DNA from: Clostridia bacterium DTU068
Lineage (GTDB): Bacteria > Bacillota > DSM-12270 > Thermacetogeniales > Thermacetogeniaceae
Length of the DNA stretch: 46,959 nucleotides
NCBI GenBank assembly: GCA_001513545.1
Contig: LFTQ01000039.1
Span: 1 to 46,959 of the forward strand
Direction: 5' to 3'
Part shown: positions 1,077 to 19,981 of the stretch, piece by piece
Layout: each line of letters begins with the position of its first letter
How positions within the stretch are numbered: the first letter of the stretch is position 1
The notes under the pieces: generated by a model
Told to the model about the DNA's origin: nothing
Database searches by the model: none
The model's input: the letters and a program-made list of their open reading frames with translations, nothing else
Made by a program: the position numbers and the translations under genes

Positions 1077-1088
1077 CTGGCATCACCT

Positions 1089-1835: not shown

Positions 1836-1862
1836 ATTTGACCACTCCTTGATTTTTACTAT

Positions 1863-1892: not shown

Positions 1893-1894
1893 GC

Positions 1895-1927
1895 AAAAAA
1901 AAAAGCTGCTCATACGGTTCTGAGCAG
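1895..1927 (-). terminator. Rho-independent terminator after sigF
   Basis: CTGCTCA (1927-1921) and TGAGCAG (1912-1906) form a 7-bp stem with an 8-nt loop. One C then a run of ten T residues (1904-1895) follows on the minus strand. It ends the spoIIA-sigF transcript about 50 nt past the sigF stop. Confidence 0.9.
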
Positions 1928-1978
1928 ACAAGCACCACCCCTACTGAACAAACATTGAATGATTAAAAAGACAGTAAA

Positions 1979-2740
1979 TCAGCTTAAGTATGCGCGCAGT
2001 TTGGAAAATGCTCGCTTTTCCAAACGGGAAACCTGGACCTGTGACAAACCCAGTTGTGAGCCAACTTCTGCTTGAGTTTTATCCTGAAAGTACCTTAATA
2101 AAATGATCTGTCTTTCCCTTTCCGGCAGACAGCTCAGGGCATCCCTTAGGTCTATCTTCTCCAACCATTTTAATTCTTCATCATTCGTACCGGGCAGATA
2201 GTCGATTACCTGGGATGAATCCTCACCCTCCTGTCCAACACTTTCAAATAATGAGACAGGAAACTGGGCTGCCTCTATTGCCAAGACAACTTCCTCCTTT
2301 TCCATTCCCAATTCCCGGGCAATCTCTTCAACAGTAGGTTCACGGGCTAGTTTGCGCACTAATCTCTCTCTGGACTGACTGACCTGAACAGCTCTTTCCT
2401 TCAAGGCCCTGGTTGTCTTAATCGGGTGGTCATCCCTGAGAAAGCGACGGATCTCCCCAATAATCATCGGCACAGCATAAGTAGAAAATTTGACATTAAA
2501 AGAGGGATCAAAATTATCAATTGCTTTGATCAAACCGATAACACCGATCTGAAAGATATCCTCTTCATCATAACCCCGCCCCTCAAAACGCTTGAGTATA
2601 TTAAAAACTAAACGATAATTACAATTGACCAGTTTTTCTCTCGCCTTTTGATCACCCTGCCTCGTTTTTTCCAACAATCGCAGAGTTTCTTCCTCACTGA
2701 GGAGAGGAAAGCGAGGCAGACTCATATCCTGCAAACCCAT
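1979..2740 (-). CDS. sigF: RNA polymerase sigma factor SigF (SpoIIAC)
   Basis: The 253-aa protein is a sporulation sigma-70 family member. Region 2 is at about residues 38-105 (core binding and -10 recognition, with FSTYAVPMIIGEIRRFLRDD), region 3 at about 110-185, and region 4 at about 200-250 with the helix-turn-helix QAEVGSQLGLSQVQVSRLEK. SigF is the first forespore-specific sigma factor; SpoIIAB holds it inactive until septation. Identity as SigF rather than SigG or SigB follows from its position as third gene after spoIIAA and spoIIAB. It starts 9 nt after the spoIIAB stop and ends at a strong terminator. Confidence 0.96.
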   Translation of the reverse strand: MGLQDMSLPRFPLLSEEETLRLLEKTRQGDQKAREKLVNCNYRLVFNILKRFEGRGYDEEDIFQIGVIGLIKAIDNFDPSFNVKFSTYAVPMIIGEIRRFLRDDHPIKTTRALKERAVQVSQSRERLVRKLAREPTVEEIARELGMEKEEVVLAIEAAQFPVSLFESVGQEGEDSSQVIDYLPGTNDEELKWLEKIDLRDALSCLPERERQIILLRYFQDKTQAEVGSQLGLSQVQVSRLEKRAFSKLRAYLS

Positions 2741-2749
2741 GATCTTCCT

Positions 2750-3202
2750 CTAATTTTCATTAAACCACTGTGCCTTTACTTCACCGGGCAGTTTCTTGCG
2801 CATTATGACTTTGGTACCCTGATCAGGTTCTGAAGTCACCTCCAGTTCATCCATAAAGGTGCGCATAAAAACAAAACCCAGCCCCATCCGTTCCGGGTCA
2901 GTTCCTTCACCGGGTTCTAATGCCTGATCTAGCTTATTGATCCCCCTTCCCCTGTCTTCTACAACAATTTCCAGACTGGAATCATACAGAGAGGCTGTTA
3001 GGGTAACAATCCCTTGCGGATCCTTTTGGTACCCGTGAACAATGGCATTGGTTACCGCTTCAGATACAGCAACCTTGATTTCTTCGAGAACACTCACATC
3101 ATAATCAAGCTCAGAGGCAAAAGCAGCTACCGCGATGCGGGCTAATCTAACATTTCCAGCTATACTTGGAAACTCAAGCTTGATATGGTTAATTGCCTTC
3201 AT
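2750..3202 (-). CDS. spoIIAB: SpoIIAB, anti-sigma F factor and serine kinase
   Basis: The 150-aa product has the GHKL/HATPase-like fold of SpoIIAB: the N box (KVAVSEAVTNAIVHGY, about 44-59), the G1 box (VVEDRGRGI, about 95-103) and the G2 box (GLGFVFMRTFMD, about 122-133). SpoIIAB binds sigma-F and also phosphorylates SpoIIAA on serine with ATP, which sets when forespore transcription starts. The start is 1 nt after the spoIIAA stop and the stop is 9 nt before sigF, consistent with tight translational coupling of the three proteins. Confidence 0.96.
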   Translation of the reverse strand: MKAINHIKLEFPSIAGNVRLARIAVAAFASELDYDVSVLEEIKVAVSEAVTNAIVHGYQKDPQGIVTLTASLYDSSLEIVVEDRGRGINKLDQALEPGEGTDPERMGLGFVFMRTFMDELEVTSEPDQGTKVIMRKKLPGEVKAQWFNEN

Positions 3203-3203
3203 A

Positions 3204-3554
3204 TCACATCACCTTCCCGGCTAAATACTTTAGCGCTTGGGCTGTATTAGGGTATACTGGTATCAGTCGGGTGATCCCGGAAAGGTTCAAAATCTTAATG
3301 ATCCTAGAATCTCCGCTGGCTATCACCACATTCCCCTCATTTTCCTTAACCCTCCGATAGCGGCCCAGGATAACACCCAAACCTGAACTGTCAATAAAAC
3401 TAATTCCGGTTAGGTCAAAAAGGATATTTTTCACTGCCTGTTTTTCATAATTTCGGTCAATTTCCCGGCGGCAGTGATCAGCCAGTTCCAAATCAAAATC
3501 CCCGAAAATTTTTACCAATAGGATATCTCCTATATTCTTGATCTCCAGGTTCAA
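3204..3554 (-). CDS. spoIIAA: SpoIIAA, anti-anti-sigma F factor (STAS domain)
   Basis: The open frame begins at an ATG at 3587, but I place the start at the TTG at 3554. That TTG has a strong GGGAGGGG site 6 nt upstream, gives 116 aa (the family norm is about 117), and the upstream ATG lies essentially at the expected transcript start of the sigma-H promoter at 3591-3620. The STAS domain holds the phosphorylation loop FIDSSGLGVILGRY, with the target serine at about residue 56. Unphosphorylated SpoIIAA binds SpoIIAB and frees sigma-F. First gene of the spoIIAA-AB-sigF operon. Confidence 0.95.
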   Translation of the reverse strand: MNLEIKNIGDILLVKIFGDFDLELADHCRREIDRNYEKQAVKNILFDLTGISFIDSSGLGVILGRYRRVKENEGNVVIASGDSRIIKILNLSGITRLIPVYPNTAQALKYLAGKVM

Positions 3555-3590
3555 AAACCGCCCCTCCCATCTCCCAACATTTTTCATTTG

Positions 3591-3620
3591 TAATTCAACA
3601 TTAAAGAGAAATAATCCTGC
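3591..3620 (-). promoter_or_regulatory. Sigma-H promoter of the spoIIA operon
   Basis: GCAGGATTA (3620-3612), a 12-nt spacer and GTTGAATTA (3599-3591) match the sigma-H consensus RnAGGAwWW-N11-12-RnnGAATWW at every fixed position. It lies directly after the dacF terminator and predicts a transcript start near 3585. spoIIA is a known sigma-H target in Bacillus. Confidence 0.85.
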
Positions 3621-3630
3621 TAAAAAATGG

Positions 3631-3662
3631 CATTAAAAATTCCCCTGGTCTTGGGGAATTTT
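3631..3662 (-). terminator. Rho-independent terminator after dacF
   Basis: AAAATTCCCC (3662-3653) and GGGGAATTTT (3645-3636) form a 10-bp stem with a 7-nt loop, running into TTTTTAATG. It separates dacF from the sigma-H-driven spoIIA operon. Confidence 0.75.
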
Positions 3663-3688
3663 GAGCATGAAAGTTTTGCCGCTTCTCT

Positions 3689-4831
3689 TTATCCAGCCAT
3701 GGTCTTCAATGTTTTTTTCATTTGCTGCAAGAATCCCCCCCTAGCTATACCTTTTTGTACTATCAGAGGAACCCTCTGCTGGACCTTGCCATCAACAATT
3801 ACTTTTATTTCTCCTGCCTTTTGTCCCTTAGCAACAGGTGCATTGATGATCTCAGGAATCGTCAGCTCAGTTTTTACATCTATTTTCTCACCTTTACGGG
3901 TCAGCACACCCACACCCTCGGGAACCACTAAACCAGTATAATCAGCTGTGCCTTTTCCCACACGAACCTTACCAACCACCTCACCGGGTTTTACCACCTC
4001 CTGGTAAGCAAAATTAGCAAACCCCCAGTTTAATAGTTCAATTGACTCATTAAAGTGGCCCCGTGGTTCTGGGACACCGAAAACACAGCAGATAAGGCGC
4101 AGATTGTCACGCTTTACTGTAGATGCCAGACAGTAATTAGCTTCAGTAGTCCAGCCTGTTTTAAAACCATCTGTCCCACCATACCACCACAGCAGTTTAT
4201 TGGTGTTATCCAGTTTTGTTTTTCCTCCACGGAGTTTATAGTAATGCTTAATACTGGTCAGCTTCAAGTATTCGGGGTGTTTTACAGCCTCACGGCAGAG
4301 CACAGCCATATCATAGGCAGATGTGTAGTGGTTTTTGGCAGGCAGGCCGTGAACATTGGCAAAATGCGTGTTTTTCAATCCCAGGTCCTTGACCTTCTGG
4401 TTCATCAAATCCACAAAAACCTTTTCACTTCCAGCAATATGTTCGGCAACAGCCACACAGGCATCATTGGCAGAACCCACCGCAATAGCGATCATCATCT
4501 CTCTAAAAGACATCTCTTCCCCTGGCTCCAGCCATATCTCTGATCCGCCCATTTCCCAGGCTGCCTCACTGGTTACAACCCTGTCATCCCAATTAACTTT
4601 ACCGCTTTTCAAGGCCTCTATTGCCACCAAAAGTGTGGCAACTTTGGTCACACTGGCAGGTGCCATCCGCTTATGGGGGTTTTTTTGATAAAGAATCTTA
4701 CCTGTACTGGCCTCCATCAGCACTGCAGAAGGTGCATCAGTTTCCGGTGTGCTGCTCCAGGCATATTTGGCAGGGACCAATTGCAGAAAAGAAAACACCA
4801 GGATTATGGATATGATCGAACGATAACACAT
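3689..4831 (-). CDS. dacF: DacF, D-alanyl-D-alanine carboxypeptidase (S11 family)
   Basis: The 380-aa protein starts with a signal peptide (hydrophobic residues about 6-21, likely cleaved after the AWSS region). It has the three penicillin-binding active-site motifs: SVTK (S60-K63), SAN at about 119-121, and KTG in the DGFKTGWT segment near 219-226. A C-terminal PBP5 beta domain follows from about residue 275. It trims the terminal D-Ala from peptidoglycan stem peptides at the membrane surface. Its place immediately before spoIIAA is the classic dacF-spoIIA arrangement, where DacF controls cross-linking of spore peptidoglycan. I could not find a convincing sigma-F promoter in the 102-nt gap before it. 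Confidence 0.93.
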   Translation of the reverse strand: MCYRSIISIILVFSFLQLVPAKYAWSSTPETDAPSAVLMEASTGKILYQKNPHKRMAPASVTKVATLLVAIEALKSGKVNWDDRVVTSEAAWEMGGSEIWLEPGEEMSFREMMIAIAVGSANDACVAVAEHIAGSEKVFVDLMNQKVKDLGLKNTHFANVHGLPAKNHYTSAYDMAVLCREAVKHPEYLKLTSIKHYYKLRGGKTKLDNTNKLLWWYGGTDGFKTGWTTEANYCLASTVKRDNLRLICCVFGVPEPRGHFNESIELLNWGFANFAYQEVVKPGEVVGKVRVGKGTADYTGLVVPEGVGVLTRKGEKIDVKTELTIPEIINAPVAKGQKAGEIKVIVDGKVQQRVPLIVQKGIARGGFLQQMKKTLKTMAG

Positions 4832-4933
4832 GGCACTATTACCTCCCTGTAGTATTTTCTTTTCATAGTATCTGCAAGTTGAGCCCTGTTAATCCTGGGA
4901 CAGGCTGCCAGAAAAAAGGGAGGAAGCTAAAAG

Positions 4934-6238
4934 CTAGAAAACAATATCATGGATCAGAGGCGGTAGCTGTGGGCTGTCCTGGCCAATAACAAAGGATTTC
5001 TTTACACGCTCCTTCACCTCAGCCAGGTTATCCCTTCTGTTCACATGCAGCTCAGCAATGGGTTCACCAACAGCAACTGCATCCCCCATTTTTTTTCGTA
5101 AAACAATCCCTACCGCAGGATCGATCTTATCATCTTTGCGCAGACGGCCGGCTCCCAGCAGCAGTGATGCCCAGCCTATCTCACGGGCATTGATCCAGTG
5201 AACAATGCCTTCTTTATCTGCCTGCACCTCGATTTGTTCAGCAGCCCTGGGAAGGAGATCAGGGTTATCGAGGACCTCAGGAGAACCTCCCTGAGCTGTG
5301 ATGATCTCCCGCATCTTAGCGAGCCCTGCTCCCTGCTCCAGCAGTTTCTCCAGACTCTTTCTTCCCTCTTCAGGAGATGCTGCTACACCTGCTGCTGCCA
5401 GCATCTCTCCACCTAGCACCAGGCAGAGTTCAACAAGATCACTGGGGCCCTTTCCTTTCAGTGTGGATATAGCCTCCTTTACCTCCTGGGCATTTCCCAC
5501 CGCCAGTCCCAGGGGTTGTTCCATACTGCTGATCACAATCACAGTTTTGCGGCGAAACTCGCTCCCTAAAGCCGCCATTAGCTCACCCAGAGCCCTTGCG
5601 CGATCAACAAAAGGAAGAAAACCGCCGGACCCCACCTTGACATCCAACACTATCCGGTCAGCACCACCGGCAATCTTTTTAGACATAATACTGCTGGCTA
5701 TCAAAGGGAGGGAATCTACTGTTCCGGTCACATCACGCAGTGCATAGATCTTTTTATCAGCAGGCACCAAATTTTCGGTCTGACCTGCCAAGACTGCCCC
5801 GATACTGCTGGCTGCTCTTTTCATCTCATCTAATGACAGATCCGTCCTGAAGCCGGGTATGGACTCTAACTTATCCAGAGTACCTCCGGTATGGCCGAGA
5901 GCCCTGCCTGACATTTTGACCACCTTTAACCCTGCAGCTGCCACCAATGGCACAAGCACCAGGGTGGTCTTATCACCAACACCTCCCGTACTGTGTTTAT
6001 CCACTTTTATCCCTGGGATGTCTTTCAAATCCAGCAGATCACCTGATTTGATCATAGCCAGGGTTAAATACTTTGTTTCTTCATAGTTGAGACCCCGTAA
6101 AAAGGCAGCCATTAAAAAAGAAGACATCTGGTAATCTGGAATCTCTCCCTCAACAAACCCCCTGACCATGTATTCCAGTTCCTGAAAAGTAAGCCTTCCC
6201 CCCTCCCGCTTTTTAATGATCAGATCAACCGCTCGCAT
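4934..6238 (-). CDS. pdp: Pyrimidine-nucleoside phosphorylase
   Basis: The 434-aa product matches the thymidine/pyrimidine phosphorylase family in full length (B. subtilis Pdp is 433 aa). The family signature SGRALGHTGGTLDKLESIPG lies at about residues 109-128, and the glycine-rich phosphate-binding segment KHSTGGVGDKTTL at about 81-93. It cleaves uridine, deoxyuridine and thymidine to the base plus (deoxy)ribose-1-phosphate. That sugar phosphate is the substrate of phosphopentomutase, encoded 13 nt upstream, so the pair forms a nucleoside salvage and catabolism unit. The ATG start with a purine-rich site is unambiguous. Confidence 0.95.
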   Translation of the reverse strand: MRAVDLIIKKREGGRLTFQELEYMVRGFVEGEIPDYQMSSFLMAAFLRGLNYEETKYLTLAMIKSGDLLDLKDIPGIKVDKHSTGGVGDKTTLVLVPLVAAAGLKVVKMSGRALGHTGGTLDKLESIPGFRTDLSLDEMKRAASSIGAVLAGQTENLVPADKKIYALRDVTGTVDSLPLIASSIMSKKIAGGADRIVLDVKVGSGGFLPFVDRARALGELMAALGSEFRRKTVIVISSMEQPLGLAVGNAQEVKEAISTLKGKGPSDLVELCLVLGGEMLAAAGVAASPEEGRKSLEKLLEQGAGLAKMREIITAQGGSPEVLDNPDLLPRAAEQIEVQADKEGIVHWINAREIGWASLLLGAGRLRKDDKIDPAVGIVLRKKMGDAVAVGEPIAELHVNRRDNLAEVKERVKKSFVIGQDSPQLPPLIHDIVF

Positions 6239-6251
6239 GGACCTTCACTCC

Positions 6252-7436
6252 TTATAAAATACCGGCTATGGGAGTTCCATCCCCCTGTTCCACACCAAAA
6301 GCTTTTGCCAAAGTTGCTCCCAGATCAGCCATAGTAGAGCGCACCCCGAGAGAAGCTGTTCTTACTCCGGGACAGGTTATCAGCAGAGGTACATATTCTC
6401 TGGAGTGATCGGTGCTGGGTGTTGTGGGGTCACAGCCGTGATCAGCGGTCATCACTACCAGATCCCCCAGCTGCAGATCCTCAAAGAGATCAGGAAGCCA
6501 TGAATCAAAGGCCTCCAGTGCCTTGGCAAAACCCTTTATATCATTGCGGTGCCCATAAAGGGAATCAAAATCCACCAGAGTAGCAAAAACAAGACCCCTC
6601 TCCAATTCTTGAAAAGCGTTCATAGCAGCATGGAATATTTCCTGATTTCCCGCCACAGGGATTGACTTGGTTATACCCTGGCCGGCAAAAATATCATTTA
6701 CCTTGCCCACAGCCACAACCTGAAAACCGCTGTTGCTGAGGGCATCAAAAAGTGTTGGCCGCGGTGGGGGGAGGGAAAAATCCTGGCGCCGTGGTGTACG
6801 CCAGTAATCACCATCTTTACCAAGGAAAGGACGGGCTATAACCCTTCCCACAGCATGAGGCCCTGTCAGCAGTTCCCTGGCAATAGAACAGATTTGATAC
6901 AGTTCAGCAATTGGGATAACCTCCTCATGGGCGGCAACCTGAAACACACTGTCTGCAGATGTATAAACAATGGGTTTTCCTGTTCTTACATGGAGATCAC
7001 CCAATTCCTTGATGATTTCTGTCCCTGATGCAACCTTATTCCCCAGTACCTTTTTCCCAATCTTCTTTTCAAAAGGGATGATAATCTCCGGTGGGAATCC
7101 TTCAGGATAGGTGGGAAATGGTTTGTCCAAGATGACACCGGTCATCTCCCAATGCCCGCTGGTGGTATCCTTGCCTGCAGAGCGCATAGCCATCTTTCCG
7201 TAGGCTGCTTTTGGGTTAGCGGCAGGTGGCACACCAGCTAGAGGAACAATGTTGCCCAGTCCCAACTGCTCCAGACAAGGAAGGTGAAGCCCACCCACAC
7301 TCTCTGCCAGGTTTACCAGAGTGGATGATCCAGCATCCCCAAAATCTGCTGCATCAGGTAGTTCTCCCACACCAACCCCGTCCATGACTAGAACTAATAC
7401 CCTGTTCACACTAGGCTCTGGGATGTGATTTTTCAT
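6252..7436 (-). CDS. deoB: Phosphopentomutase
   Basis: The 394-aa product equals the family length and belongs to the alkaline phosphatase superfamily. The N-terminal metal site is [20 protein letters not shown] (about 15-34), with the nucleophile Thr in the following GSSTL segment, and the C-terminal metal ligands are in [19 protein letters not shown]. It interconverts (deoxy)ribose-1-phosphate and -5-phosphate. The ATG at 7436 overlaps the end of xerD by 26 nt and has GGGAGG close upstream. The order xerD-deoB-nucleoside phosphorylase-dacF-spoIIA is as in Bacillus. Confidence 0.95.
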
Positions 7437-8301
7437 AAACCTCCCTCATCTTTCTCTTGCTCAGATGGGTATAAATCTGTGTTGTTGTAATATCTGCATG
7501 CCCCAGCATTTCCTGGACAGCCCTCAAGTCCGCGCCGTTCTCTAGGAGGTGTGTGGCGAAAGAGTGGCGCAGCACATGGGGGGTAATTTCGCTCTGGATC
7601 CCTGCTTTTTTGGCATAACCTTTGAGTATTTTCCAAAACCCCTGACGGGTCAACCGTCTGCCGTTCTTGTTCAAAAAAACAGCTCGTTCCCAACTGCTCT
7701 TTCTTAACTTTAACCAACAGCGGGACAGATATTCTCTGAGATATTTTTGAGCTATTTCACCAATAGGAATAATCCGCTCCCTGGACCCCTTTCCCATGCA
7801 GCGGACAAACCCCAGGTCCAAATTCAGGTGCTCAGTATCCAAACCGAGCATTTCGGAAACCCGCATCCCAGTGGCATACAACAGTTCCAACATAGCCTTA
7901 TCCCTCAGTCCTGTTAATGTTCCAGGGTTGGGTTGGGATAGGAGTTTCTCCACATCCTGGACACTCAGCACCCGCGGCAGATTCTTCTCCAATTTAGGAG
8001 ATGTGAGATTCTCAGTAGGATCTGCCGTTACCAGCCCCTCCTGCAGTAGATAGCGATATAAGCCACGCAGGGCGGCCAGCATGCGGGACCTGGTTCTGGC
8101 GCTTTTGTTCAAGAGGCGCTGCTGGTTCAGAAAACACAGAATAACGTTCTGTGTTCCCTGGAAAAGGTTGAGCTTCTGTGCAGCTAAAAAAGAGGTGTAT
8201 TGCTCCAGGTCATAGCGGTAAGAGTTGATGGTATTATCAGCAAGTCCCCGCTCGACCCGTAAAAAGGTTAAAAACTCATTCAAATAACGATTTTCACTCA
8301 A
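7411..8301 (-). CDS. xerD: XerD-type tyrosine recombinase
   Basis: The 296-aa protein has the SAM-like N-terminal core-binding domain (about 1-90) and the catalytic domain with all six residues: R147 (TGMRVSE), K171 (KGSRERI), H242 and R245 (HVLRH), H268 (LGHAD) and Y277 (IYTH). XerC/D recombinases resolve chromosome dimers at dif. Position before deoB and after a DUF4227-like small gene matches B. subtilis xerD (ripX). The start is a TTG at 8301 with GGGGG upstream. A strong terminator upstream (8351-8382) means it probably has its own promoter, which I could not identify. Confidence 0.93.
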
Positions 8302-8350
8302 TAATCTACCCCCGTTAATATTTTCCTGTTTTCAGAAGAGTTCTACACAT

Positions 8351-8382
8351 AAAAAAAAATTCCTCTCTGGACTCCAGAAAGG
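8351..8382 (-). terminator. Rho-independent terminator between the 82-aa membrane protein gene and xerD
   Basis: CCTTTCTGG and CCAGAGAGG pair over 9 bp (one G-U) around a 3-nt loop, then AA and nine T residues on the minus strand. It begins 9 nt past the stop of the upstream small gene. Confidence 0.85.
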
Positions 8383-8390
8383 TTTTAAAA

Positions 8391-8639
8391 TCACGGTATC
8401 GGCTGTTCTCCACCACCATAAAGCTGTCGCACCTTATCAATCAAGGAGCTTTCTTCTGCCGGAACCACCCTACTGCTTTCCACCCTCAGTAAATCCTGCT
8501 CCTGATCTATATCCCCGATTTCAGTTGCAATAAAAGAAAGAAACCGCGGTATGATGAGGCCGATCAATAGCAAAAAGAACAGCAGCTTGAGAATAACAGC
8601 ACATTTCTGCTTCCAATTAGTGATAGTGATCATCAACAT
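8391..8639 (-). CDS. Small single-pass membrane protein, possibly YqzK/DUF4227-like
   Basis: The 82-aa product has a basic N-terminus (TNWKQK), one hydrophobic segment at about residues 13-36, and an acidic extracytoplasmic tail of about 45 residues. The ATG at 8639 has a strong GGGAGGG site 7 nt upstream. I do not recognise it confidently. B. subtilis has a similar small membrane protein, YqzK (DUF4227), immediately upstream of xerD, so this may be its positional counterpart. It is followed by a terminator. Confidence 0.65.
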   Translation of the reverse strand: MLMITITNWKQKCAVILKLLFFLLLIGLIIPRFLSFIATEIGDIDQEQDLLRVESSRVVPAEESSLIDKVRQLYGGGEQPIP

Positions 8640-8761
8640 CAGCTTGCCCTCCCATCAGTGATAATCACAGGTCCTGGACAACCCCTGATTTATATTATGC
8701 ACTGCTTCCCATCAGGTAGAACCTTAAAATCTAAATAAAAAATCACAGCATTATCAGTCAA

Positions 8762-9409
8762 TCACTGGTAGAGGGAACAGATCAATTTCAGAAAGTTAGG
8801 CACCAAATAGGTTTCCACCCATGAACCCAGCAGAACCAGCAGGATAAAAAAGAAAAAAAGTAATGAATAAACACCAATTCTGCGCAGGGGAGCATCCCGG
8901 ACAGTGCGCAGCAGGGTAAAGGAAAAATAAAAAGACAGAACTCCCGCCCCTAACAATGCCGGTATATAGCAGAGGTTCTGGGGAAGCACTCCGACCAAGG
9001 CCAGGAGAAGACCCTTCCCTGCTTCTTCCTGCACCAAAAAGCCAACTGTCACACCTACAGTAAATCCCTTAGCACTGATCAATAATAAGATCAGTGGGGT
9101 CCCCACTACTGTTAAACCCAAAAACCAGAGAAGAGCAACAGATGCCAATTGTGTTTTGAGAATCTGATACCATGTTTTTAGATCAGAAAATGAATGTTTG
9201 GAGAGAACAGATGATTCTTCAAGAAAATAGGTGAGATACTGACGCATTTCTTGCTGCACTAAGGGGTCTAAGGTACGCAAACTGACAGCACCTAAGATTA
9301 AACCGCTCAAAAAAAACCCCACAGCTAATAAAAGGGGAATCAGCAGCTGTTTTTGGGTATCAATAACAGCAGATGTCCTGGCTAAACGCATAAGAATCCT
9401 CCCCGGCAT
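8762..9409 (-). CDS. spoIIM: SpoIIM, stage II sporulation protein M
   Basis: The 215-aa protein (B. subtilis SpoIIM is 214 aa) has four to five membrane segments, with the family-typical first segment LLLAVGFFLSGLILGAVSL (about 27-45) and a central GFTVGVTVGFLV stretch. SpoIIM is the membrane scaffold of the DMP machine (with SpoIID and SpoIIP) that remodels septal peptidoglycan during engulfment. Two starts are possible: ATG at 9409 and ATG at 9391, each with its own GGAGG. The 9391 start gives 209 aa and has the better spacing (6 nt). The first start lies inside a stem-loop (9402-9439), and a CATAGACT sequence there resembles a sigma-E -10 box, without a good -35. Confidence 0.92.
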   Translation of the reverse strand: MPGRILMRLARTSAVIDTQKQLLIPLLLAVGFFLSGLILGAVSLRTLDPLVQQEMRQYLTYFLEESSVLSKHSFSDLKTWYQILKTQLASVALLWFLGLTVVGTPLILLLISAKGFTVGVTVGFLVQEEAGKGLLLALVGVLPQNLCYIPALLGAGVLSFYFSFTLLRTVRDAPLRRIGVYSLLFFFFILLVLLGSWVETYLVPNFLKLICSLYQ

Positions 9410-11900: not shown

Positions 11901-12980
11901 TTATTTACAAAGATCTGCTGCAATCGAACCAGCTGCACCGGCAGCCAGGAAAAATGCCGGATCAGTTGACGGTTTTCGTCCCATACTGCTCACCCTGATC
12001 CCCATTTCCGAAAGATAGCCCAGTGCTGGGCTTCCATCCCGGAACACTACCCTGTGGCGATCAAAGATCCCCGCCTGTTCCAGTTGTTTTTTGATCAGGT
12101 CTCTCTGCTGGGTGTTGTCCAACTCCGGCAGAGCGATAACAGCCTCTCGAAGAGCAACCTGTCCCAAGGCTGTCAGGGTATGGTGGCTGACCCCCTGATG
12201 GCGGGGTCGAGGGTCAGCAAAACTGATCCTGGGAACAGCCACAGGCCGGCCACCCAGAATGTTTGCTGCATTAATGATCTCACCCTGCTCCAGTGCGGTT
12301 GTCCCCCACTTTGTGCCTGTACCCACAATACCCGGCCCCATGGTGACAATAATCACATCAGCCTTGAGGACCTGATAAGCTGCGATCAGCCCGGAATAGA
12401 TGTTCACACTCTCCAGATCACCACCAAAGGCATGCCCTGTGGTAACAGTTCCGGCTATGATCCCCTTTTTCTTGAGGGTCCGCACCATCCTGCTTAAAGG
12501 AAGAGGCAGAGCAGCACCATCGGTCATCACATAAACAACCCTCAGCTCTTTCTCTTTTCCTGCCACACACCCAGCAGCAGCAGGAGCCAGCATACTGTGC
12601 AGTGTCCCCACAACCACAGGTGTCCCCTCCAGTGATGTAAACTCCTTGATATCATCGTGGTATGGACTCTCTTCCTCCTCTACACTGAGCACTTTTAGCT
12701 GGTAGGGGGTATAGCGGAGCTTCATAATATGGCCGGGGCCCGGTTCATTCTCCTGGATGCGGCTTAGGTTCGCGATCACAAAGTGATAGCCGCCAGTGCC
12801 CAATTTCAACTGAACAGCTGTTGTGTTAAGATAAACCAGATCCCCAACAACTGCCTCTCCGCTGAGCGATGGGTAGTTCCAGGCAAGGCAGGTGGTTCCT
12901 TCACACTCCACTTCCAGTTCCTGAATCTGCTCTGAGGAGTCAATGATCCTGATAACTTTTCCTTTCTTCCAGGTTATCAA
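11901..12980 (-). CDS. DUF3866 family protein of unknown function
   Basis: The 359-aa product is recognisable as DUF3866 from the N-terminal WKKGKVIRI start, the GTGGYHFVIANL segment at about 67-78, and the conserved SRMVRTLKKKGIIAGTVTTGHAFGGDLE and VGTGTKWGTT segments further on. No catalytic motif is evident to me. The N-terminal part looks like a small beta-barrel and the rest like an alternating alpha/beta fold. The gene overlaps the M20 peptidase stop by 4 nt (ATGA) and precedes nudF by 17 nt, a neighbourhood I recall as recurrent in Clostridia. Function unknown. Confidence 0.85.
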   Translation of the reverse strand: MITWKKGKVIRIIDSSEQIQELEVECEGTTCLAWNYPSLSGEAVVGDLVYLNTTAVQLKLGTGGYHFVIANLSRIQENEPGPGHIMKLRYTPYQLKVLSVEEEESPYHDDIKEFTSLEGTPVVVGTLHSMLAPAAAGCVAGKEKELRVVYVMTDGAALPLPLSRMVRTLKKKGIIAGTVTTGHAFGGDLESVNIYSGLIAAYQVLKADVIIVTMGPGIVGTGTKWGTTALEQGEIINAANILGGRPVAVPRISFADPRPRHQGVSHHTLTALGQVALREAVIALPELDNTQQRDLIKKQLEQAGIFDRHRVVFRDGSPALGYLSEMGIRVSSMGRKPSTDPAFFLAAGAAGSIAADLCK

Positions 12981-14113
12981 GGTTTCATCCCTTCAGTGCT
13001 CAATTGAATCATCTCCCAAAGAATCTGAACAACACTGACCAAATCTCGGGAATCCAAGTATTCCTCTGTGGTATGGGCCTTCTGCATTCCCACTGCCAGA
13101 TTGGCTGCCTGCAGTCCGACCGCATTAAAAATGTTGGCATCACTGCCGCCTCCGGTGGACTCCAGGCGCGGCTTGATTCCAGCCCTTTCCATAGCTTTGG
13201 CGGCAAATTCAATTACATACTGTTTGGGATCGATCCGGTATTCGGGATATTCCATTGTCACCTTTATTTCACAATCCGCTCCTGGGATCTGTTTGATCTG
13301 TTCAAACTCCTTAACGATCCTGGAGGTAATATCATCCAGCTTCTCCCGCTTAAGGCTCCTGGTCTCCCCCTGAATAAAAACTGAATCAGGGATGATATTG
13401 GTGGCTTTACCTCCTTCAATAATACCGATATTAGAGGTGGTTTCCTCATCGATTCTGCCCAATGGAAGCCGGGAGATCACCTCACTGGCGATCCTGATGG
13501 CATTAACCCCTAACTCCGGTTCGAAACCGGCATGAGCAGACTTTCCTTTGACAGTGATATTGAGAATATTCTGGGCAGGTGCAGCAGTAATGATAGCTCC
13601 CGGTGAGCCGCTGGAATCCAGGATATAGCCGAAATCTGCATCCAGCTTCCCATAGTCAAAGTTTCTGCTCCCTAAGAGCCCCCTCTCTTCCCCTACAGTC
13701 AGGAGAATTTCCAGCATTCCATGGGATTGGTTCTGCTCTTTGATCATCTCCAATAACTCCAACAGGGCGGCGATCCCTGCTTTGTCATCTCCACCAAGAA
13801 CAGTATCCCCTTCACTCCGGAAAACACCATCTTCAAATATAACCTTAACACCGTCAGCAGGCACAACTGTATCCATATGACAGCAGAAAAAAAGAGATGG
13901 GTACCTTTCATCACCTGGAAGCCGGGCAAGAACATTACCGGTTGTGCCTCCGATTTTGGCAGCAGTCTCATCTTCCTCAACACTAAAACCAAAGCCCTGT
14001 AAACGGGATTTCAAATAATCGGCCAATTCCCGCTCTTTTAAGGATGGGGAAGGAATTTCGGCGAGTTTGATAAACTCCTGAAAAAGCCTTTCCTCATTCA
14101 CGGTAACAGCCAT
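12977..14113 (-). CDS. M20 family metallopeptidase (PepT-like)
   Basis: An upstream ATG exists at 14128, but the ATG at 14113 has GAGGGGG 6 nt before it and is preferred, giving 378 aa. M20 zinc-ligand motifs are present: CCHMDTVVPADG (about 77-88 of the long form, with H and D), the bridging aspartate in LGGDDKAG, the general base in GEERGLLGS, and the C-terminal histidine in KAHTTEEY. The protein resembles B. subtilis YqjE and is often called PepT2 or tripeptidase T-like; the actual peptide substrate is not known. It overlaps DUF3866 by 4 nt and follows the MraY-like gene closely. Confidence 0.9.
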   Translation of the reverse strand: MAVTVNEERLFQEFIKLAEIPSPSLKERELADYLKSRLQGFGFSVEEDETAAKIGGTTGNVLARLPGDERYPSLFFCCHMDTVVPADGVKVIFEDGVFRSEGDTVLGGDDKAGIAALLELLEMIKEQNQSHGMLEILLTVGEERGLLGSRNFDYGKLDADFGYILDSSGSPGAIITAAPAQNILNITVKGKSAHAGFEPELGVNAIRIASEVISRLPLGRIDEETTSNIGIIEGGKATNIIPDSVFIQGETRSLKREKLDDITSRIVKEFEQIKQIPGADCEIKVTMEYPEYRIDPKQYVIEFAAKAMERAGIKPRLESTGGGSDANIFNAVGLQAANLAVGMQKAHTTEEYLDSRDLVSVVQILWEMIQLSTEGMKP

Positions 14114-14124
14114 CACAAACCCCC

Positions 14125-14940
14125 TCATTTATCTCTGCCCAAATTATCCAGAAAACGCAGCAGAGAATTGTTTTCAATAATCTCGGTAAGTGAATACTTC
14201 TCTGTGAATAGATGCAGCAAAAGCAAAAACACAACCAAAATCAGTTGAGCTGTAAAAGGCATGGTCCAGGCACAGGCCAAACCCAGAGCAGCACCCATCA
14301 GATTAGACCCTGTATCACCAAGCATCCCCTTTGCCTTCAAATCAACAGGAATTAGGGCCAAGAGACCGCCAGCTAAAGGAGACAGCAGGACCAGAGGCGT
14401 TTTACTCCGGAAAACAGCCAGCAGAATAAAGAACCACAGGTAAAACACCTTGATCGCCCTACCGGGACGCAGATCCATCAAATTGATGGTATTGGCAGCC
14501 AGTGCAATCAATAAAGCTGCAGTCAATATTTCCCACCAGGGCTGTGATCTCAGCAACAGCAGTGATAGCAACAAGGCTCCCAATCCCCCTCCCAGAGCCT
14601 TCAAAGCACCTGTGGTGAGCCTTCCCTGAAACAAGGCACCGAAATGCCCTTTAAGCCCACGGCTATCCCGGGACCCCAGCAGATCATCGATCAGACCCAG
14701 CAGGGCAAAATACAGAACAGCTAGCAGAAAAATAAGAACAGCTTCTGGTGAGAACCACTGCAACAAAAGAAATGCTGCCAGAAGGTAAACAATAACCAGA
14801 ACCAAGCCTATTCCTACAGGAATGGATTCCTGGCGAAAATTGGGGCGAACAGTTCCTGTCTCCTGAAGCAGATGAATAAAAAAAGGAAGCAGTATCAGGG
14901 TTAATAGATAACCCACTCCACCTCCAATCAATATCTTCAT
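14125..14940 (-). CDS. MraY/WecA-like glycosylphosphotransferase (family 4 type)
   Basis: The 271-aa integral membrane protein has about eight to nine hydrophobic segments. It shows the polyprenyl-phosphate sugar-1-phosphate transferase motifs: the acidic pair in GLIDDLLGSRD (about 82-92), NTINLMDLRPGRA (about 150-162) and LGDTGSN (about 207-213). It is shorter than MraY (about 320 aa), and the changed NLMDLRPGRA differs from the MraY NLTDGLDGL form. The chemistry would load a sugar-1-phosphate onto a lipid carrier; the sugar is unknown. It overlaps the preceding GT2 gene by 4 nt, in a cluster with steA and an mctB/steB-like gene. Confidence 0.8.
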   Translation of the reverse strand: MKILIGGGVGYLLTLILLPFFIHLLQETGTVRPNFRQESIPVGIGLVLVIVYLLAAFLLLQWFSPEAVLIFLLAVLYFALLGLIDDLLGSRDSRGLKGHFGALFQGRLTTGALKALGGGLGALLLSLLLLRSQPWWEILTAALLIALAANTINLMDLRPGRAIKVFYLWFFILLAVFRSKTPLVLLSPLAGGLLALIPVDLKAKGMLGDTGSNLMGAALGLACAWTMPFTAQLILVVFLLLLHLFTEKYSLTEIIENNSLLRFLDNLGRDK

Positions 14941-15608
14941 TGAGCCACCTCTTTCCAGGAACTGATCAAAGCCAGCAGAACATCTTTGAATTGTTTGCCG
15001 CGGTGCATAAAACCGGAAAGATCCCTGCCGGTGACCCGGTGAAACATTGTTGTGGGAACCTCCAGGATGCGAAAACCGCAGCGTGCTGCCTTAATGGTCA
15101 TAGCTAGCTCTACACCATATCCGGAAGCAAAAGGTGCCACCACATCCAGCACCTCCCTGAGCATAACCCGCTGGCCTGAAAGAGGGGCTTCCATCCGCAG
15201 CCCTGTACGCAGATAGATCCCGGTGCGGGCCAAACCTTTGACCAGACCAAACCCTCCTGTTTTTTTAACAGGAGGGAATGCAGCAATAGTCATGTCTGCC
15301 TTATTATCCAAAACCGGGCTTGCCAGTACCTCCAGTTGACCTGCACTTTCACCCAGATCCCCATCCAGCAGAGCCACCACTGGTTGGTTAATATAGGGTA
15401 TACCTCGATTGAGGGCCTCTCCCTTACCATAATTAGAGCCCAAGCTGATCACCTGGGCACCTGCTTCCTTTGCTTTGAGTGCTGTTCCATCCCGGGACCC
15501 GTCATCCACCACTATCAACTGCCCAACATTAGGAACCTTCATAGCTGCTTTCACTGTGTCAGCTATCAAATCTTCTTCATTATATGCCGGAATCAATACA
15601 GTAATCAA
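14937..15608 (-). CDS. Family 2 glycosyltransferase
   Basis: The 223-aa protein has a GT-A fold: ITVLIPAYNEEDLIADTV at the N-terminus, VVDDGSRDGT at about 34-43 and the metal-binding ALLDGDLGES at about 79-88. A predicted amphipathic or hydrophobic section lies at about 125-170, and there is no long membrane tail, unlike many dolichol-phosphate-mannose synthase-like enzymes. It probably transfers a sugar to a lipid carrier or lipid-linked acceptor, because the next gene (4-nt overlap) is an MraY-like transferase. Donor and acceptor are unknown. Confidence 0.85.
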   Translation of the reverse strand: MITVLIPAYNEEDLIADTVKAAMKVPNVGQLIVVDDGSRDGTALKAKEAGAQVISLGSNYGKGEALNRGIPYINQPVVALLDGDLGESAGQLEVLASPVLDNKADMTIAAFPPVKKTGGFGLVKGLARTGIYLRTGLRMEAPLSGQRVMLREVLDVVAPFASGYGVELAMTIKAARCGFRILEVPTTMFHRVTGRDLSGFMHRGKQFKDVLLALISSWKEVAQ

Positions 15609-15623
15609 ATCAAGGTCACTTCC

Positions 15624-16496
15624 TTACTGCAAAGGGGGAAGAAAACTTTCTGCGGTCTCTTTAATTCCATAATGCCCCGGATAACCGTTCATCGCCTGAA
15701 TTAAAGCCAACTGTCCATGGGCTGTGTCAATATTATCGACTGTTGTCAAACGAGCGTTCTGATAATGGCGCATGTAAGAAATCTCTACATCACTGTCCTC
15801 AGTCCCGTAAACAGTGCAACCCGCTTTCTGCAATGATCTTATCAAATTCAAATCAAAGATCTTGGCATAATTCTCATCTTTATTATGACTTCCCCCGATC
15901 AAAATAACATCCTGAAGAGGATGACCATAAATCCCCGTGACACTGGCAATCTCAGTATCATCTAAAAAAACAATTAAATCACTGTGTGCTCCGGTGGTCA
16001 CCGCTTCTCCTAACAGTTTAGCCAGATTAGCCAGGTACTCATCAGGATTGGAGTTATCTTTACCCAGCATGCCTGCTGTCTGTTTGCTTAAACTGGAATC
16101 TTTAAGCAGCCCCAGATTGACCACCGTAACCGACTGTATATCGGCCCCCGCAGACCTGAGAGCGCTGAGCAACCCGTCATGTTCTTTATTATAGTTGACA
16201 TCTATCACAGCTATTTTACGCCCTTCAAGCTTTCCGCTCACCAGTAAGGGCAATACTCTCTCATTGAATTTCTGCTGGTTGGCGATCACTTCCTGAGCCT
16301 GCATTAGAGCATCAGCATTCACCTTATTTTCCTCACGCAAAACAGCAAATTCCTTTTCCAGCCCCTCGATCATCTTCTTCTGCTGCTCATTAATTGCATC
16401 ACTGCTGATCATTGAAGTGCCGATCAAAATCCCTAAGGCTAAAGCCAAAAATACAGCAGCCAAAGAAGCAATGTGATATCTAATATCAACAATCAA
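15624..16496 (-). CDS. steB: MctB/SteB-like membrane protein
   Basis: The 290-aa protein has a short cytoplasmic N-terminus (IVDIRYHIASLAAVFLALALGILIGTS, with one membrane segment at about 9-28). A coiled-coil-like segment follows at about 38-75 (Glu/Lys/Gln-rich), then a soluble alpha/beta domain. This is the pattern of the actinobacterial MctB copper transport protein (DUF3186) and of SteB from the Corynebacterium steAB operon. Its pairing with steA argues for a SteB-like cell-division or envelope role rather than copper transport. The start is a TTG at 16496 with AAGGAG 9 nt upstream. Confidence 0.75.
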   Translation of the reverse strand: MIVDIRYHIASLAAVFLALALGILIGTSMISSDAINEQQKKMIEGLEKEFAVLREENKVNADALMQAQEVIANQQKFNERVLPLLVSGKLEGRKIAVIDVNYNKEHDGLLSALRSAGADIQSVTVVNLGLLKDSSLSKQTAGMLGKDNSNPDEYLANLAKLLGEAVTTGAHSDLIVFLDDTEIASVTGIYGHPLQDVILIGGSHNKDENYAKIFDLNLIRSLQKAGCTVYGTEDSDVEISYMRHYQNARLTTVDNIDTAHGQLALIQAMNGYPGHYGIKETAESFLPPLQ

Positions 16497-16547
16497 GCTG
16501 AAAAACTCCTTCCGTTTTCATCCATCAGTAACCGGATATAATTCCTA

Positions 16548-17690
16548 TTAAATTCGGAGCAATAGCTTAACCTGCATAATCAACAGTTTAAAAAAACTCC
16601 TGGTAGCTGGAGACATAATGACAATAACAAAAATAGGAAGCAGCGCGGCAAGAAATATCTGTAACAGATGCTTCATCTTCAGCCTCTGCCGGTAAAGTTT
16701 GCTTACTCCTTTAGCATCAACCAGAATTGAACCAACCTTGAGCCGCACTAAAAAGGTGCTTGCCATCCCTGGACGGCCCTTCTCTAAAAAATCGATCATA
16801 TTGGAGTGGGTCCCCACAGCCACCATCAATTCAGCACCATGTTCATATGCCAGCAGGAACGCAATATCCTCACTGGTCCCGGGAGCTGCATAAACAACAG
16901 CATCCAAACCCAGTTCCTTAACTCTCGCTAAACCAGGAGCACTTCCATCCGGATAGGCATGAACCACAATTTCAGCACCACACCGCAGCGCTTTATCAGA
17001 AACACTATCCATATCCCCTACAATGATATCAGGCCGATAACCCAGTTCCAACAGGGCATCAGCCCCCCCATCCACACCGATCAGCACAGGTTTCATTTCA
17101 TCGATATAAGATTTCACTGTAAGGATATCATGCTGGTAGCCGGCCCCCCGCACTACAATCATGGCATGCCGGCCCTTTAGTTTTGTTTGTAATGGGGGCG
17201 CGGGGAATTCCCCCAGAATTAATCCCTTTTCCCTTCGGGCATAATCCAGGGTATTATCAACAAACTTGGCCAATTCCTGCTTAACATTATCCTGTGCTGC
17301 AGCCATTTTCTCCCTCACTGCCTCTTCAGTGAGGAGAACAGCGCGGGCCACGAAAACCCCCCTGCAGAAAATATCCTCTCCGCAGATGACAACCTCATCC
17401 CCTTCGCGGATCATCTGCATCACATCCTGGCCCGCATTATCAAGAAGCGGGACCCCTGCCATGATTAGCTTAAGGGGACCCGCATTAGGATACCTGCCGG
17501 TTATAGATGGACTAGCATTAATGACTGCTTTTGGCCGGCAGTTGATCAGTGATTCTGCGGCCAACTCGTCAATATCTGTATGATCAATAACAGCAATTTC
17601 ATGACTACACAAGCGTTTGACGAGGTTTTTTGTGCGACCATCAACTTTTGCCTTTCCCTTAATCTCCATGACATAACCCTGCCTCGCCAT
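16548..17690 (-). CDS. steA: SteA-like cytokinetic protein with thiamine-pyrophosphokinase-like domain
   Basis: The 380-aa protein resembles SteA, the putative cytokinetic ring protein of Actinobacteria. Residues about 170-300 resemble a thiamine pyrophosphokinase catalytic fold (GVDGGADALLELGYRPDIIVGDMDSVSD, about 207-234). The N-terminal half is a separate alpha/beta domain, and one hydrophobic segment lies near the C-terminus (about 347-366). The start could be the ATG at 17690 or at 17669; ribosome sites are weak at both. It is the first gene after spo0A and leads into the steB-like, GT2 and MraY-like genes. Link to division is by homology only. Confidence 0.8.
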   Translation of the reverse strand: MARQGYVMEIKGKAKVDGRTKNLVKRLCSHEIAVIDHTDIDELAAESLINCRPKAVINASPSITGRYPNAGPLKLIMAGVPLLDNAGQDVMQMIREGDEVVICGEDIFCRGVFVARAVLLTEEAVREKMAAAQDNVKQELAKFVDNTLDYARREKGLILGEFPAPPLQTKLKGRHAMIVVRGAGYQHDILTVKSYIDEMKPVLIGVDGGADALLELGYRPDIIVGDMDSVSDKALRCGAEIVVHAYPDGSAPGLARVKELGLDAVVYAAPGTSEDIAFLLAYEHGAELMVAVGTHSNMIDFLEKGRPGMASTFLVRLKVGSILVDAKGVSKLYRQRLKMKHLLQIFLAALLPIFVIVIMSPATRSFFKLLIMQVKLLLRI

Positions 17691-17740: not shown

Positions 17741-18508
17741 CTAACTCACCTTGGTTCCCACCCTCAGACGGTCCGCAACCATGGCGATAAACTCTGAATT
17801 GGTTGGTTTTCCCCGTTCCACATCAATTGTGTACCCAAAGAATTTGTTCATCAGTTCCACATTGCCCCGATCCCAGGCCAGCTCAATGGCATGACGGATT
17901 GCCCTTTCCACTCTGCTGGGTGTTGTGTTGTATTTCTCGGCTATGGCAGGGTAGAGTTCTTTAGTAACAGCACCCAATAGATTCATCTCTTCCACTACCA
18001 TCAGTATGGCATCCCTGATATATTGATAGCCCCTTACATGCGCCGGAACCCCCATTTGGTGCATTAAATTGGTGACCTCAACATCCAGGTTGCGGGATTT
18101 GGTGACAGGGCTTTTCACATTCCCCACCTGATTATTGGCCAACTGCCGCACCCTGTTGGCCAGTATCTCCAGGTCAAAGGGTTTGAGGATATAGTAATTG
18201 GCACCTAACTCCACTGCACGCTTTGTCATAGCCTCCTGCCCAAAAGCAGTAAGGATAATAACCCGCGGGCGGTCCTCACCATAGTCCATGGAAAGCCTTT
18301 CCAGTACACCGATTCCATCTAAATGCGGCATAATCAGGTCCAATATAATCACATCCGGAAAATCCTCATTCAACAACTCTATAGCCTGTATTCCGTTATG
18401 CGCTACCCCGCTAACAACACAATCCTCAAGACCATCAAAGTATTCTTTCAATATTTCGCAAAAATCCTTGTTATCATCTACTATCATTATCTTAATCTGA
18501 CTTACCAA
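17741..18508 (-). CDS. spo0A: Spo0A, sporulation master response regulator
   Basis: The 255-aa protein has a receiver domain at about 1-125 with the acidic pocket D11/D12, phospho-acceptor D57 ([13 protein letters not shown]), T87 and K109. The DNA-binding effector domain spans about 145-250, with the characteristic [12 protein letters not shown] and [15 protein letters not shown] recognition segment. Spo0A~P turns on sporulation genes, including spoIIA and spo0A itself. The start is a TTG at 18508 with GGGGG about 9 nt upstream; an ATG seven codons in is less likely. It sits next to spoIVB as in Bacillus and has a sigma-H/0A-box control region upstream. Confidence 0.98.
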
Positions 18509-18564
18509 AGAAATTCGCCCCCTAAATACAAATTACTTTATTTTCAATTCTTTAATTTTACAGT

Positions 18565-18594
18565 TACTTCGACACCCCTACAAATATTTCCTTC
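18565..18594 (-). promoter_or_regulatory. Sigma-H-type promoter with overlapping Spo0A box, before spo0A
   Basis: GAAGGAAAT (18594-18586), a 12-nt spacer and GTCGAAGTA (18573-18565) match the sigma-H pattern with one -10 mismatch. TGTCGAA at 18574-18568, overlapping the -10, is the exact Spo0A box consensus. A further partial match, GGGCGAA, lies just before the start codon. The arrangement suggests spo0A autoregulation, as known in Bacillus. Confidence 0.7.
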
Positions 18595-18637
18595 ATCGAA
18601 ATATAGGAGAAGATGACTTATTATAGATAATATAAAA

Positions 18638-19981
18638 CTATACCGCCAGTCTCTCCTCAAGTGGGATCATACTTGTTCTGCCCGGCAGCAACCCGGCTTC
18701 TTCCAGCATCATCTCAGCAAACACCCCGTAGCCTTGTGAAGGGTCATTAACCAATACATGGGTCACCGCACCCACCAATTTCCTTTCCTGAATAATGGGG
18801 CTTCCGCTCATCCCTTGAATTATGCCGCCTGTCCGGCGCAGAAGGTCCGGGTCAGTGACCCTGATGATCATAGATTTCCCATCAGCCCGCGGTCGGGAAA
18901 AAACAGTTTCAATTTTCACCTTAAAGGCTTCAATGGTCCGGTTATTTATAACAGTGAGTATGGTTGCCGGCCCTTCTTTAACCTGGTGACTCATGGCCAC
19001 TGAAATCGGTTCTGGGAATAAAGGATTGGTCACCTGCTGCTGTAAACGGCCAAAAATGCCGTATGCGGTGTTTTTATTGATTTTTCCCGAAATATCATTT
19101 CCCCCGAAGAACCCAATTTTTTCGCCGATTTTACCCCGTTCACCCTTCTGGATTGCCTGCACAACAGCAGAAACAACCCTGCCATCTTGAAAGACCCAAG
19201 AATCCTCCGGTCCAGAAGTAGTGATCATATGTCCCAAAGCTCCGAATTTTTTTGTTTTGGGCTCGACAAAAGTAAGGGTGCCCACACCGGCAGCAGCATC
19301 ACGCACCAGAAGTCCGATGCGATAGCGCCCGGTTTCACCGCAGAACTGCGGTTTTACCTTAACTTCGCTAACTTTTCCCCTGTATTTGATCTTAAGCCTG
19401 ATCTGTTTCTTCCTTCTGGCCTCTTGATCGATCAAATAGCTTAACTGGGTATCACTCTGTACCGCTGTATCCTCAACTTTCAAAATAATCGCTCCAGGCT
19501 TTAAACCGGCATCCTTCCCGGGTGATGCTTTGCTGCCATCCTGAAGTGTGATCTGAGAGTAACCCACCACCATAACCCCCTCTGAGTTGAGTAGGACACC
19601 GATGGAATGGCCTCCCACCATCACTTTTACAGGGGATACCACCTGCAGGGTAACTTTTTTGAAAGGGATCACACCAAAAAGGCGCAAATAGAGGTCGATA
19701 TTCCCCGGAACATCAGCTATTAGAGAATCATTCTGCTGCAGTATTTTCTGATTTGACCCGGCCTGCAATTTTAGCTTTCCTTCCCCTTCAAGCACCAGAG
19801 CGGTAAGCCTCTCTGATAAATAATCTGGGAAAAGATTTTCCAGGGCCACTCTGTCCCCCACATTAATCCGCAGATGTGCCGGATTGGAAGCGGCAACTTG
19901 AACCAGGATCATATAGCTTGACACTGTAAAAAATACAAAGAAAAAAAGACCAATTATCCTTTTTAGGTTTGTGGTCTTAAT
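18638..19981 (-). CDS. spoIVB: SpoIVB, stage IV sporulation serine protease (S55)
   Basis: The protein has a PDZ domain (about 110-190) and the S55 peptidase domain, with the GALGHMI histidine region and the catalytic serine in GMSGSPIIQ. SpoIVB is secreted from the forespore and cleaves SpoIVFA, triggering pro-sigma-K processing. The first ATG/GTG/TTG start in frame is a GTG at 19924, which lies inside the membrane anchor. The same frame extends 19 codons upstream (KTTNLKRIIGLFFFVFFT before SSYMILV), giving the expected basic-plus-hydrophobic N-terminus. I therefore extend to an ATT at 19981, which has AGGAG 10 nt before it. If that is wrong, the coding region is 18638-19924 (428 aa). Confidence 0.9.
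   Translation of the reverse strand: MKTTNLKRIIGLFFFVFFTVSSYMILVQVAASNPAHLRINVGDRVALENLFPDYLSERLTALVLEGEGKLKLQAGSNQKILQQNDSLIADVPGNIDLYLRLFGVIPFKKVTLQVVSPVKVMVGGHSIGVLLNSEGVMVVGYSQITLQDGSKASPGKDAGLKPGAIILKVEDTAVQSDTQLSYLIDQEARRKKQIRLKIKYRGKVSEVKVKPQFCGETGRYRIGLLVRDAAAGVGTLTFVEPKTKKFGALGHMITTSGPEDSWVFQDGRVVSAVVQAIQKGERGKIGEKIGFFGGNDISGKINKNTAYGIFGRLQQQVTNPLFPEPISVAMSHQVKEGPATILTVINNRTIEAFKVKIETVFSRPRADGKSMIIRVTDPDLLRRTGGIIQGMSGSPIIQERKLVGAVTHVLVNDPSQGYGVFAEMMLEEAGLLPGRTSMIPLEERLAV

Follow-up and report, generated by a model that had tools for sequence, protein, structure and literature searches.

A conserved steA-steB-GT2-MraY-like gene module in Bacillota and Actinomycetota that may couple a lipid-linked sugar step to cell separation

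Four adjacent genes on contig LFTQ01000039.1 of Clostridia bacterium DTU068 (assembly GCA_001513545.1) encode SteA, the MctB-family protein SteB, a family GT2 glycosyltransferase and an MraY-like membrane protein. The contig was analysed over its whole length of 46,959 nucleotides, hereafter the window. The genes recur together across Bacillota and Actinomycetota, and we give an even chance to the reading that they form an ancient unit in which a lipid-linked sugar or head-group step is coupled via SteA to cell separation. Our direct observations concern co-occurrence, gene order, active-site conservation and the clade of the MraY-like protein, from which we infer its activity, its product and the coupling. 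The four genes are as follows.

16548..17690, minus strand: steA; thiamine pyrophosphokinase (TPK)-like cytoplasmic domain and SteA-like C-terminal transmembrane segment (NF040608, PF12555, PF04263)
15624..16496, minus strand: steB (MctB family); one N-terminal transmembrane helix and an extracytoplasmic domain (PF11382)
14937..15608, minus strand: GT2; GT2/GT81-like soluble glycosyltransferase (PF00535)
14125..14940, minus strand: MraY-like (PNPT-fold) protein, 271 amino acids (PF00953)

A preliminary description of the window, made from its sequence, had proposed these identities, their tight packing and their adjacency to spo0A. Profile matches, judged by Pfam gathering cut-offs and equivalog-model cut-offs applied to the window proteins, bear out the identities, and the coordinates agree. 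The genes are collinear, behind recN-spoIVB-spo0A and ahead of genes for an M20 peptidase, a DUF3866 protein and a NUDIX protein. Gaps of 50 nucleotides (spo0A-steA), 51 (steA-steB) and 15 (steB-GT2) give way to 4-nucleotide overlaps between GT2 and the MraY-like gene and between the latter and the M20 peptidase gene; a single transcript for the module genes is therefore likely. A scan for promoters and terminators found no signal bearing on the operon that clearly exceeded shuffled sequences.

Distribution and gene order

The Bacillota sample comprises 61 genomes, 20 from the window's family and the others one per family. SteA and the MraY-like protein are both present in 44 of these genomes and both absent from 17, with no discordant case (Fisher p 2e-15, phylogeny ignored). 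This count is unbiased, as it comes from an independent SteA search of the genomes. The 41 Bacillota regions mapped for gene order were chosen for holding an MraY-like gene, which is thus present in 41 of 41 by construction. The order steA-(steB)-GT2-MraY-like is kept in line in 40 of them, the window included. The region of genome G055 lacks GT2, and seven of the 41 have no recognisable steB and retain steA-GT2-MraY-like. This conservation of order goes far beyond chance. Because the genes 3' of the module differ widely (butyrate genes, transporters, DUF3866), the four genes stand out as a stable core. At locus L042, the 10-transmembrane gene after the module encodes a sodium symporter, so a MurJ partner was ruled out there.

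The Actinomycetota sample is an even draw of 111 genomes across the phylum, with MraY-like proteins counted at 140 bits or more. SteA is found in 55 genomes, 51 of which also have the MraY-like protein and four of which have SteA only; an intact MraY-like gene is found in none of the 56 SteA-less genomes. One of the latter, G184, carries a decayed copy (L188:5328-6110) in which RPGRA has become GPGVA, directly behind recN and ahead of a GT4 gene. A mixed SteA alignment, used as the query of a scan, yielded 80 named actinobacterial loci. The MraY-like gene directly follows steA-steB in Micromonospora, Geodermatophilus, Cellulomonas, Actinomadura, Knoellia and others, and genes for a MurJ-family flippase and a GT4 enzyme lie next to it where tested (Micromonospora, Knoellia, others). 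It is missing at the loci of Mycobacterium, Nocardia, Rhodococcus, Amycolatopsis, Saccharothrix and Nakamurella, and is absent genome-wide from all 10 genomes tested from these genera.

At four loci of deep Actinomycetota (L177, L178, L182, L186), the order steA-steB-GT2-MraY-like matches that of the window; pyrG comes next, with M20 and/or DUF3866 genes after it. In other Actinomycetota, steB and the MraY-like gene are separated by inserted genes, for a GT4 enzyme, a large multi-transmembrane protein, a second GT2 or a PMT_2 enzyme. The preliminary description had called steA-steB an actinobacterial-type pair, which does not hold, as the neighbourhood is common to Bacillota and Actinomycetota. 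Its proposed coupling of this pair to the GT2 and MraY-like genes has fared better: it named a survey of co-occurrence in other genomes as the test that could refute it, and the genes do co-occur in both phyla.

Some of the inserted genes merit separate mention. The cluster at L172 includes a PMT_2-type (dolichyl-phosphate-mannose-protein mannosyltransferase) gene (L172:7781-9067) and a second GT2 (L172:7035-7733), which suggests polyprenyl-phosphate sugar donors. Many actinobacterial steAB clusters also encode a multi-transmembrane protein of 744-785 amino acids (for example, L145:13804-16161, L169:7313-9547 and L172:9128-11425). It has no confident Pfam or PDB match, and its N-terminus is alkaline-phosphatase-like, by eye only.

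The two phyla are nearly, not perfectly, separated in the tree of MraY-like proteins, and the neighbourhood appears to predate their split or to reflect early exchange. When presence of the pair is traced on the best PyrG tree for 49 genomes, it switches 12 times (bootstrap range 10-13), with SteA and the MraY-like protein changing together every time. Repeated joint loss is likely, though not proven.

The four proteins

The MraY-like protein scores 35.3 bits against PF00953 (cut-off 27) and 18.9 bits against the MraY equivalog TIGR00445, far below its cut-off of 192. Its AlphaFold model (pLDDT 94.6, pTM 0.91) adopts the PNPT membrane fold, and each of its 36 best PDB matches is a structure of MraY or DPAGT1 (E-values down to 7e-7). 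It also aligns, profile against profile, with canonical MraY and WecA-like proteins encoded in the same genomes (E 7e-13 and 7e-15). It forms a separate clade on a long branch within the MraY/WecA superfamily, outside the MraY clade (SH-aLRT 100), and its 271 amino acids compare with about 320-360 in MraY, WecA and DPAGT1 relatives. A canonical MraY paralogue was considered and rejected, given the low equivalog score, the separate clade and the fact that canonical PNPT genes are separate genes, present besides the MraY-like gene in the genomes tested. The window genome has two canonical mraY genes on different contigs (G000:C51:15274-15768 and G000:C208:44061-44555). Their proteins are 94% identical, and they are possibly close copies or the product of a mixed assembly.

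The catalytic aspartates of Aquifex aeolicus MraY, D117, D118 and D265 (PMC6606608), align with D85, D86 and D209 of the MraY-like protein, and N190 and D193 align with N153 and D156. Among 80 aligned homologues from two phyla, these five residues are kept wherever the position is present, and K114 is also invariant. The likeness to MraY, WecA/TagO and DPAGT1 thus extends over the fold, the catalytic aspartates, the N190/D193 equivalents and a conserved lysine. The uracil pocket of MraY consists of K70, G194, L195, D196 and F262 (PMC6606608), and the last four positions are fixed as L157, R158, P159 and M206 in the MraY-like family, so that a methionine replaces the uracil-stacking phenylalanine. 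Where bacterial PNPTs have the uridine loop NxxNLxDGLDG, the MraY-like protein has NxxNLxDLRPGRAxK, with LRPGRAxK in place of the GLDGLA of MraY. The HHH motif of MraY was not found in its sequence. The loop D-L-R-P-G-R-A-x-K (156-164) is nearly invariant in the 80 homologues; the NLMDLRPGRA motif that the preliminary description set apart from MraY is therefore real.

Because the catalytic residues are kept while the uracil-pocket positions are replaced, the simplest reading of these alignments is a third PNPT clade, in which the catalytic centre would be intact and the donor site changed. A caveat is that DPAGT1, whose loop also differs from NLxDGLDG, nonetheless works with UDP-GlcNAc. Archaeal OG0001207 has a few homologues in bacteria (PMC11915815), and these might belong to the MraY-like family.

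The window SteA scores 529 bits against NF040608 (cut-off 150), matches the C-terminal domain PF12555, and is homologous to the solved actinobacterial SteA 9hmy/9hmz, with about 32% identity to the Corynebacterium glutamicum protein. It shares the DGG and GDxDS motifs of its C-terminal domain with thiamine pyrophosphokinase. However, it scores 39.6 bits against the equivalog for that enzyme (TIGR01378, cut-off 76.4), and unlike that enzyme it is membrane-anchored and has an extra N-terminal domain. The acid motif is complete in the window (DGGAD, 207-211; GDMDS, 225-229). The motif (DG.. and GD[M/F/V]DS) is intact in all 41 Bacillota SteA proteins compared and in all 64 actinobacterial SteA proteins encoded beside an MraY-like gene. 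It is broken in all 36 actinobacterial loci that lack the MraY-like gene and have enough downstream sequence. The crystallised C. glutamicum and Mycobacterium tuberculosis proteins (PMC12977500) fall in the broken-motif class.

SteAB governs cell separation in C. glutamicum and M. tuberculosis, and C. glutamicum SteA is stabilised by GDP/UDP (PMC6705760, PMC12977500). Septal localisation of SteA and its complex with SteB are described for these two species only (PMC6705760, PMC12977500). SteA (TapA) also activates the kinase MtrB without need of SteB (PMC12338722). Homologous steA and steB (also mctB) are adjacent in these lineages and occur in the same order behind recN as in the window. In contrast, the GT2 and MraY-like genes are missing there, pyrG comes next and SteA has lost its DGG..GDxDS motif, whereas the window locus has an intact motif and two envelope-sugar enzymes after steAB.

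The window SteB has a single N-terminal transmembrane helix and matches PF11382 (MctB) over residues 3-287 (163 bits, E 1e-47). Copper transport by SteB/MctB has been argued against (PMC12977500), and a channel and copper-resistance role is defended in another report (PMC12859517). NlpC/P60 proteins (RipA-type) are present in the window genome. Of 24 further Bacillota genomes with steB, nine lack them, as do six of seven without steB; a link between the two absences is suggestive but weak. Because nine steB-bearing genomes lack them, SteB in many of these Bacillota probably has a partner other than a RipA-type NlpC/P60 protein. In some deep Actinomycetota, a single-transmembrane gene of about 300 codons lies between recN and steA (L172:1728-2615, also L169:2252-3190). 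The L172 copy, just before steA, encodes a weakly M23-like protein (E 2e-4, below the Pfam cut-off), which is a possible hydrolase partner of SteAB.

The GT2 protein matches PF00535 (E 2e-21) and is modelled with a GT-A fold (pLDDT 95.5). Its closest solved fold is GpgS (5jt0/4dec; TM-score about 0.8, 25-29% identity), followed by the polyprenyl-phosphate enzymes ArnC and GtrB. It fails every equivalog cut-off, with scores far under those for GpgS, PpgS and AglJ (73.5 bits against the GpgS model NF010496, cut-off 262). The GT-A fold is common to GpgS/GT81, ArnC and GtrB, but unlike these enzymes the GT2 protein has no membrane helices of its own and carries its own SGQR / HRxxQ signature. Its invariant residues include G61-K62, D82 (of DxDLG), SGQR (144-147), H202-R203 and Q206.

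Flanking genes and sporulation

The nearest neighbours of the module in the window are as follows.

17741..18508, minus strand: spo0A (TIGR02875, 403 bits)
12977..14128, minus strand: M20 peptidase (PepT-like), overlapping the MraY-like gene (TIGR01883, 373 bits)
11901..12980, minus strand: DUF3866 protein, next after the M20 peptidase (PF12982, 458 bits)

The DUF3866 gene holds the same place in the order in Bacillota and deep Actinomycetota. The M20 peptidase gene also keeps its place in deep Actinomycetota and is missing from many loci. Spore genes surround the module on the minus strand (69-9409 and 17741-19924). One flank has spoVAD, sigF, spoIIAB, spoIIAA, a D-Ala-D-Ala carboxypeptidase gene, deoB, xerD and spoIIM, and the other has spo0A-spoIVB behind recN.

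The association of steAB with spo0A in Clostridia has already been published, together with a suggested role in sporulation (PMC12977500). A module controlled by Spo0A, with a part in asymmetric septation or engulfment, would fit that proposal, the spoIVB-spo0A genes adjoining most mapped Bacillota loci, and the presence of spoIIM and spoIIAA-AB-sigF within the window. However, no spo0A adjoins the module loci of Actinomycetota. Spo0A scores over its cut-off in 54 of the 61 Bacillota genomes, among them eight that are at least 90% complete and lack the module. Conversely, G058 has the module and no Spo0A, and in G025 and G055 spo0A lies elsewhere. In a B. subtilis control, no SteA match exceeded the cut-off. 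This distribution argues that the spo0A neighbourhood is an inherited position and not a function, and spo0A, which is missing or elsewhere in several module-bearing genomes, is thus probably a neighbour and not a member. A sporulation-only role was therefore rejected as a general one, and the asymmetric septation that the preliminary description had offered as a specific role is not upheld; we consider a sporulation module very improbable.

Proposed function and alternatives

In the coupled unit that we propose, the MraY-like protein would be an active Mg-dependent transferase that, at the inner membrane face, moves a phospho-linked head group to a lipid phosphate (polyprenyl phosphate or a similar one), with a donor that may be recognised by other means than the usual uracil pocket. 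The GT2 protein would glycosylate the product, a task that in many Actinomycetota may fall instead to a PMT-like enzyme or to a GT4 enzyme working with a MurJ-like flippase, and the product could be exported in some lineages. The unknown lipid-linked glycan of the preliminary description is a plausible but unproven product. With its TPK-like nucleotide- or pyrophosphate-handling domain, SteA would act on or sense the same pathway in the cytoplasm. It may then relay the state of the pathway across the membrane to SteB or to a histidine kinase. Peptidoglycan would thereby be cleaved, and the cells would separate, only once the envelope step is in order. The condition of mycobacteria and corynebacteria would then be derived, with the glycan arm lost and the regulatory role of SteA alone kept.

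Several points weigh against this proposal. No flippase or polymerase adjoins the Bacillota version. Well-supported branches of the PyrG tree force only two changes. On the SteA tree, loss of the acid motif and loss of the MraY-like gene are one event, in the mycobacterial/corynebacterial lineage, so their association is a lead and has no statistical weight alone. Also, the region is home to housekeeping genes (recN, nadK, nudix, xerD), and in such a setting genes may keep their order even if they share no function.

The last point is the basis of an alternative in which the four genes have separate jobs and have inherited their adjacency, in a region that rearranges slowly. The shared order of recN, nadK, tlyA, nudix, xerD and DUF3866 in both phyla, and the wealth of housekeeping and spore genes in the window, would fit it. 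Mere inheritance of order is nonetheless improbable, as steA and the MraY-like gene appear and disappear jointly across genomes, each shows decay in the absence of the other, and their linkage persists where spo0A, m20 and others are missing. Somewhat less improbable, though still unlikely, is that the MraY-like protein is a divergent WecA/TagO-type enzyme that uses an ordinary UDP-sugar to start a conventional undecaprenyl-diphosphate-linked sugar for a secondary wall polymer, and that it lies near SteAB because both are envelope genes. The fold, the conserved DDD, N190 and D193 equivalents, the MurJ, GT4 and GT2 neighbours, and the example of DPAGT1 are consistent with such an enzyme. However, canonical PNPTs are already present in the genomes tested, the G194/L195/D196/F262 equivalents are fixed as L/R/P/M, and a general wall-polymer enzyme would not need so strict a tie to SteA. 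The short length of the protein, its lack of the MraY HHH motif and of the usual nucleotide loop could also indicate a non-catalytic membrane scaffold or sensor for SteA, but a scaffold would not need D85, D86, K114, N153, D156 and D209 to be invariant across two phyla, and we think a pseudo-enzyme rather improbable.

A further, speculative possibility, to which we give a low probability, is that SteA has pyrophosphokinase activity and produces a diphosphate donor that is not a nucleotide (X-PP), from which the MraY-like protein forms polyprenyl-PP-X. This would explain the Arg/Lys-rich loop in place of the uracil pocket, the occurrence of the MraY-like protein only with SteA, and the broken acid motif of SteA where its MraY-like partner was lost. 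If true, bacterial PNPTs would have a third type of reaction, and this one would be directly linked to cell separation.

No description of an association between the MraY-like protein and SteAB was found in the open-access literature searched. Each part belongs to a known family or is a variant of one, and it is their combination that is undescribed in that literature. SteA and SteB govern cell separation and drug tolerance in mycobacteria and corynebacteria. Most SteA-bearing bacteria sampled in the two phyla, including many that make no endospores, have a putative dedicated lipid-sugar enzyme alongside, which mycobacteria have lost. The MraY-like pathway is thus a concrete candidate for the original ligand pathway of SteA. 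The comparison also suggests that the solved SteA structures, from M. tuberculosis and C. glutamicum, represent forms with a decayed acid motif, and therefore that SteA proteins of Bacillota or Micromonospora are the place to seek an enzymatic activity.

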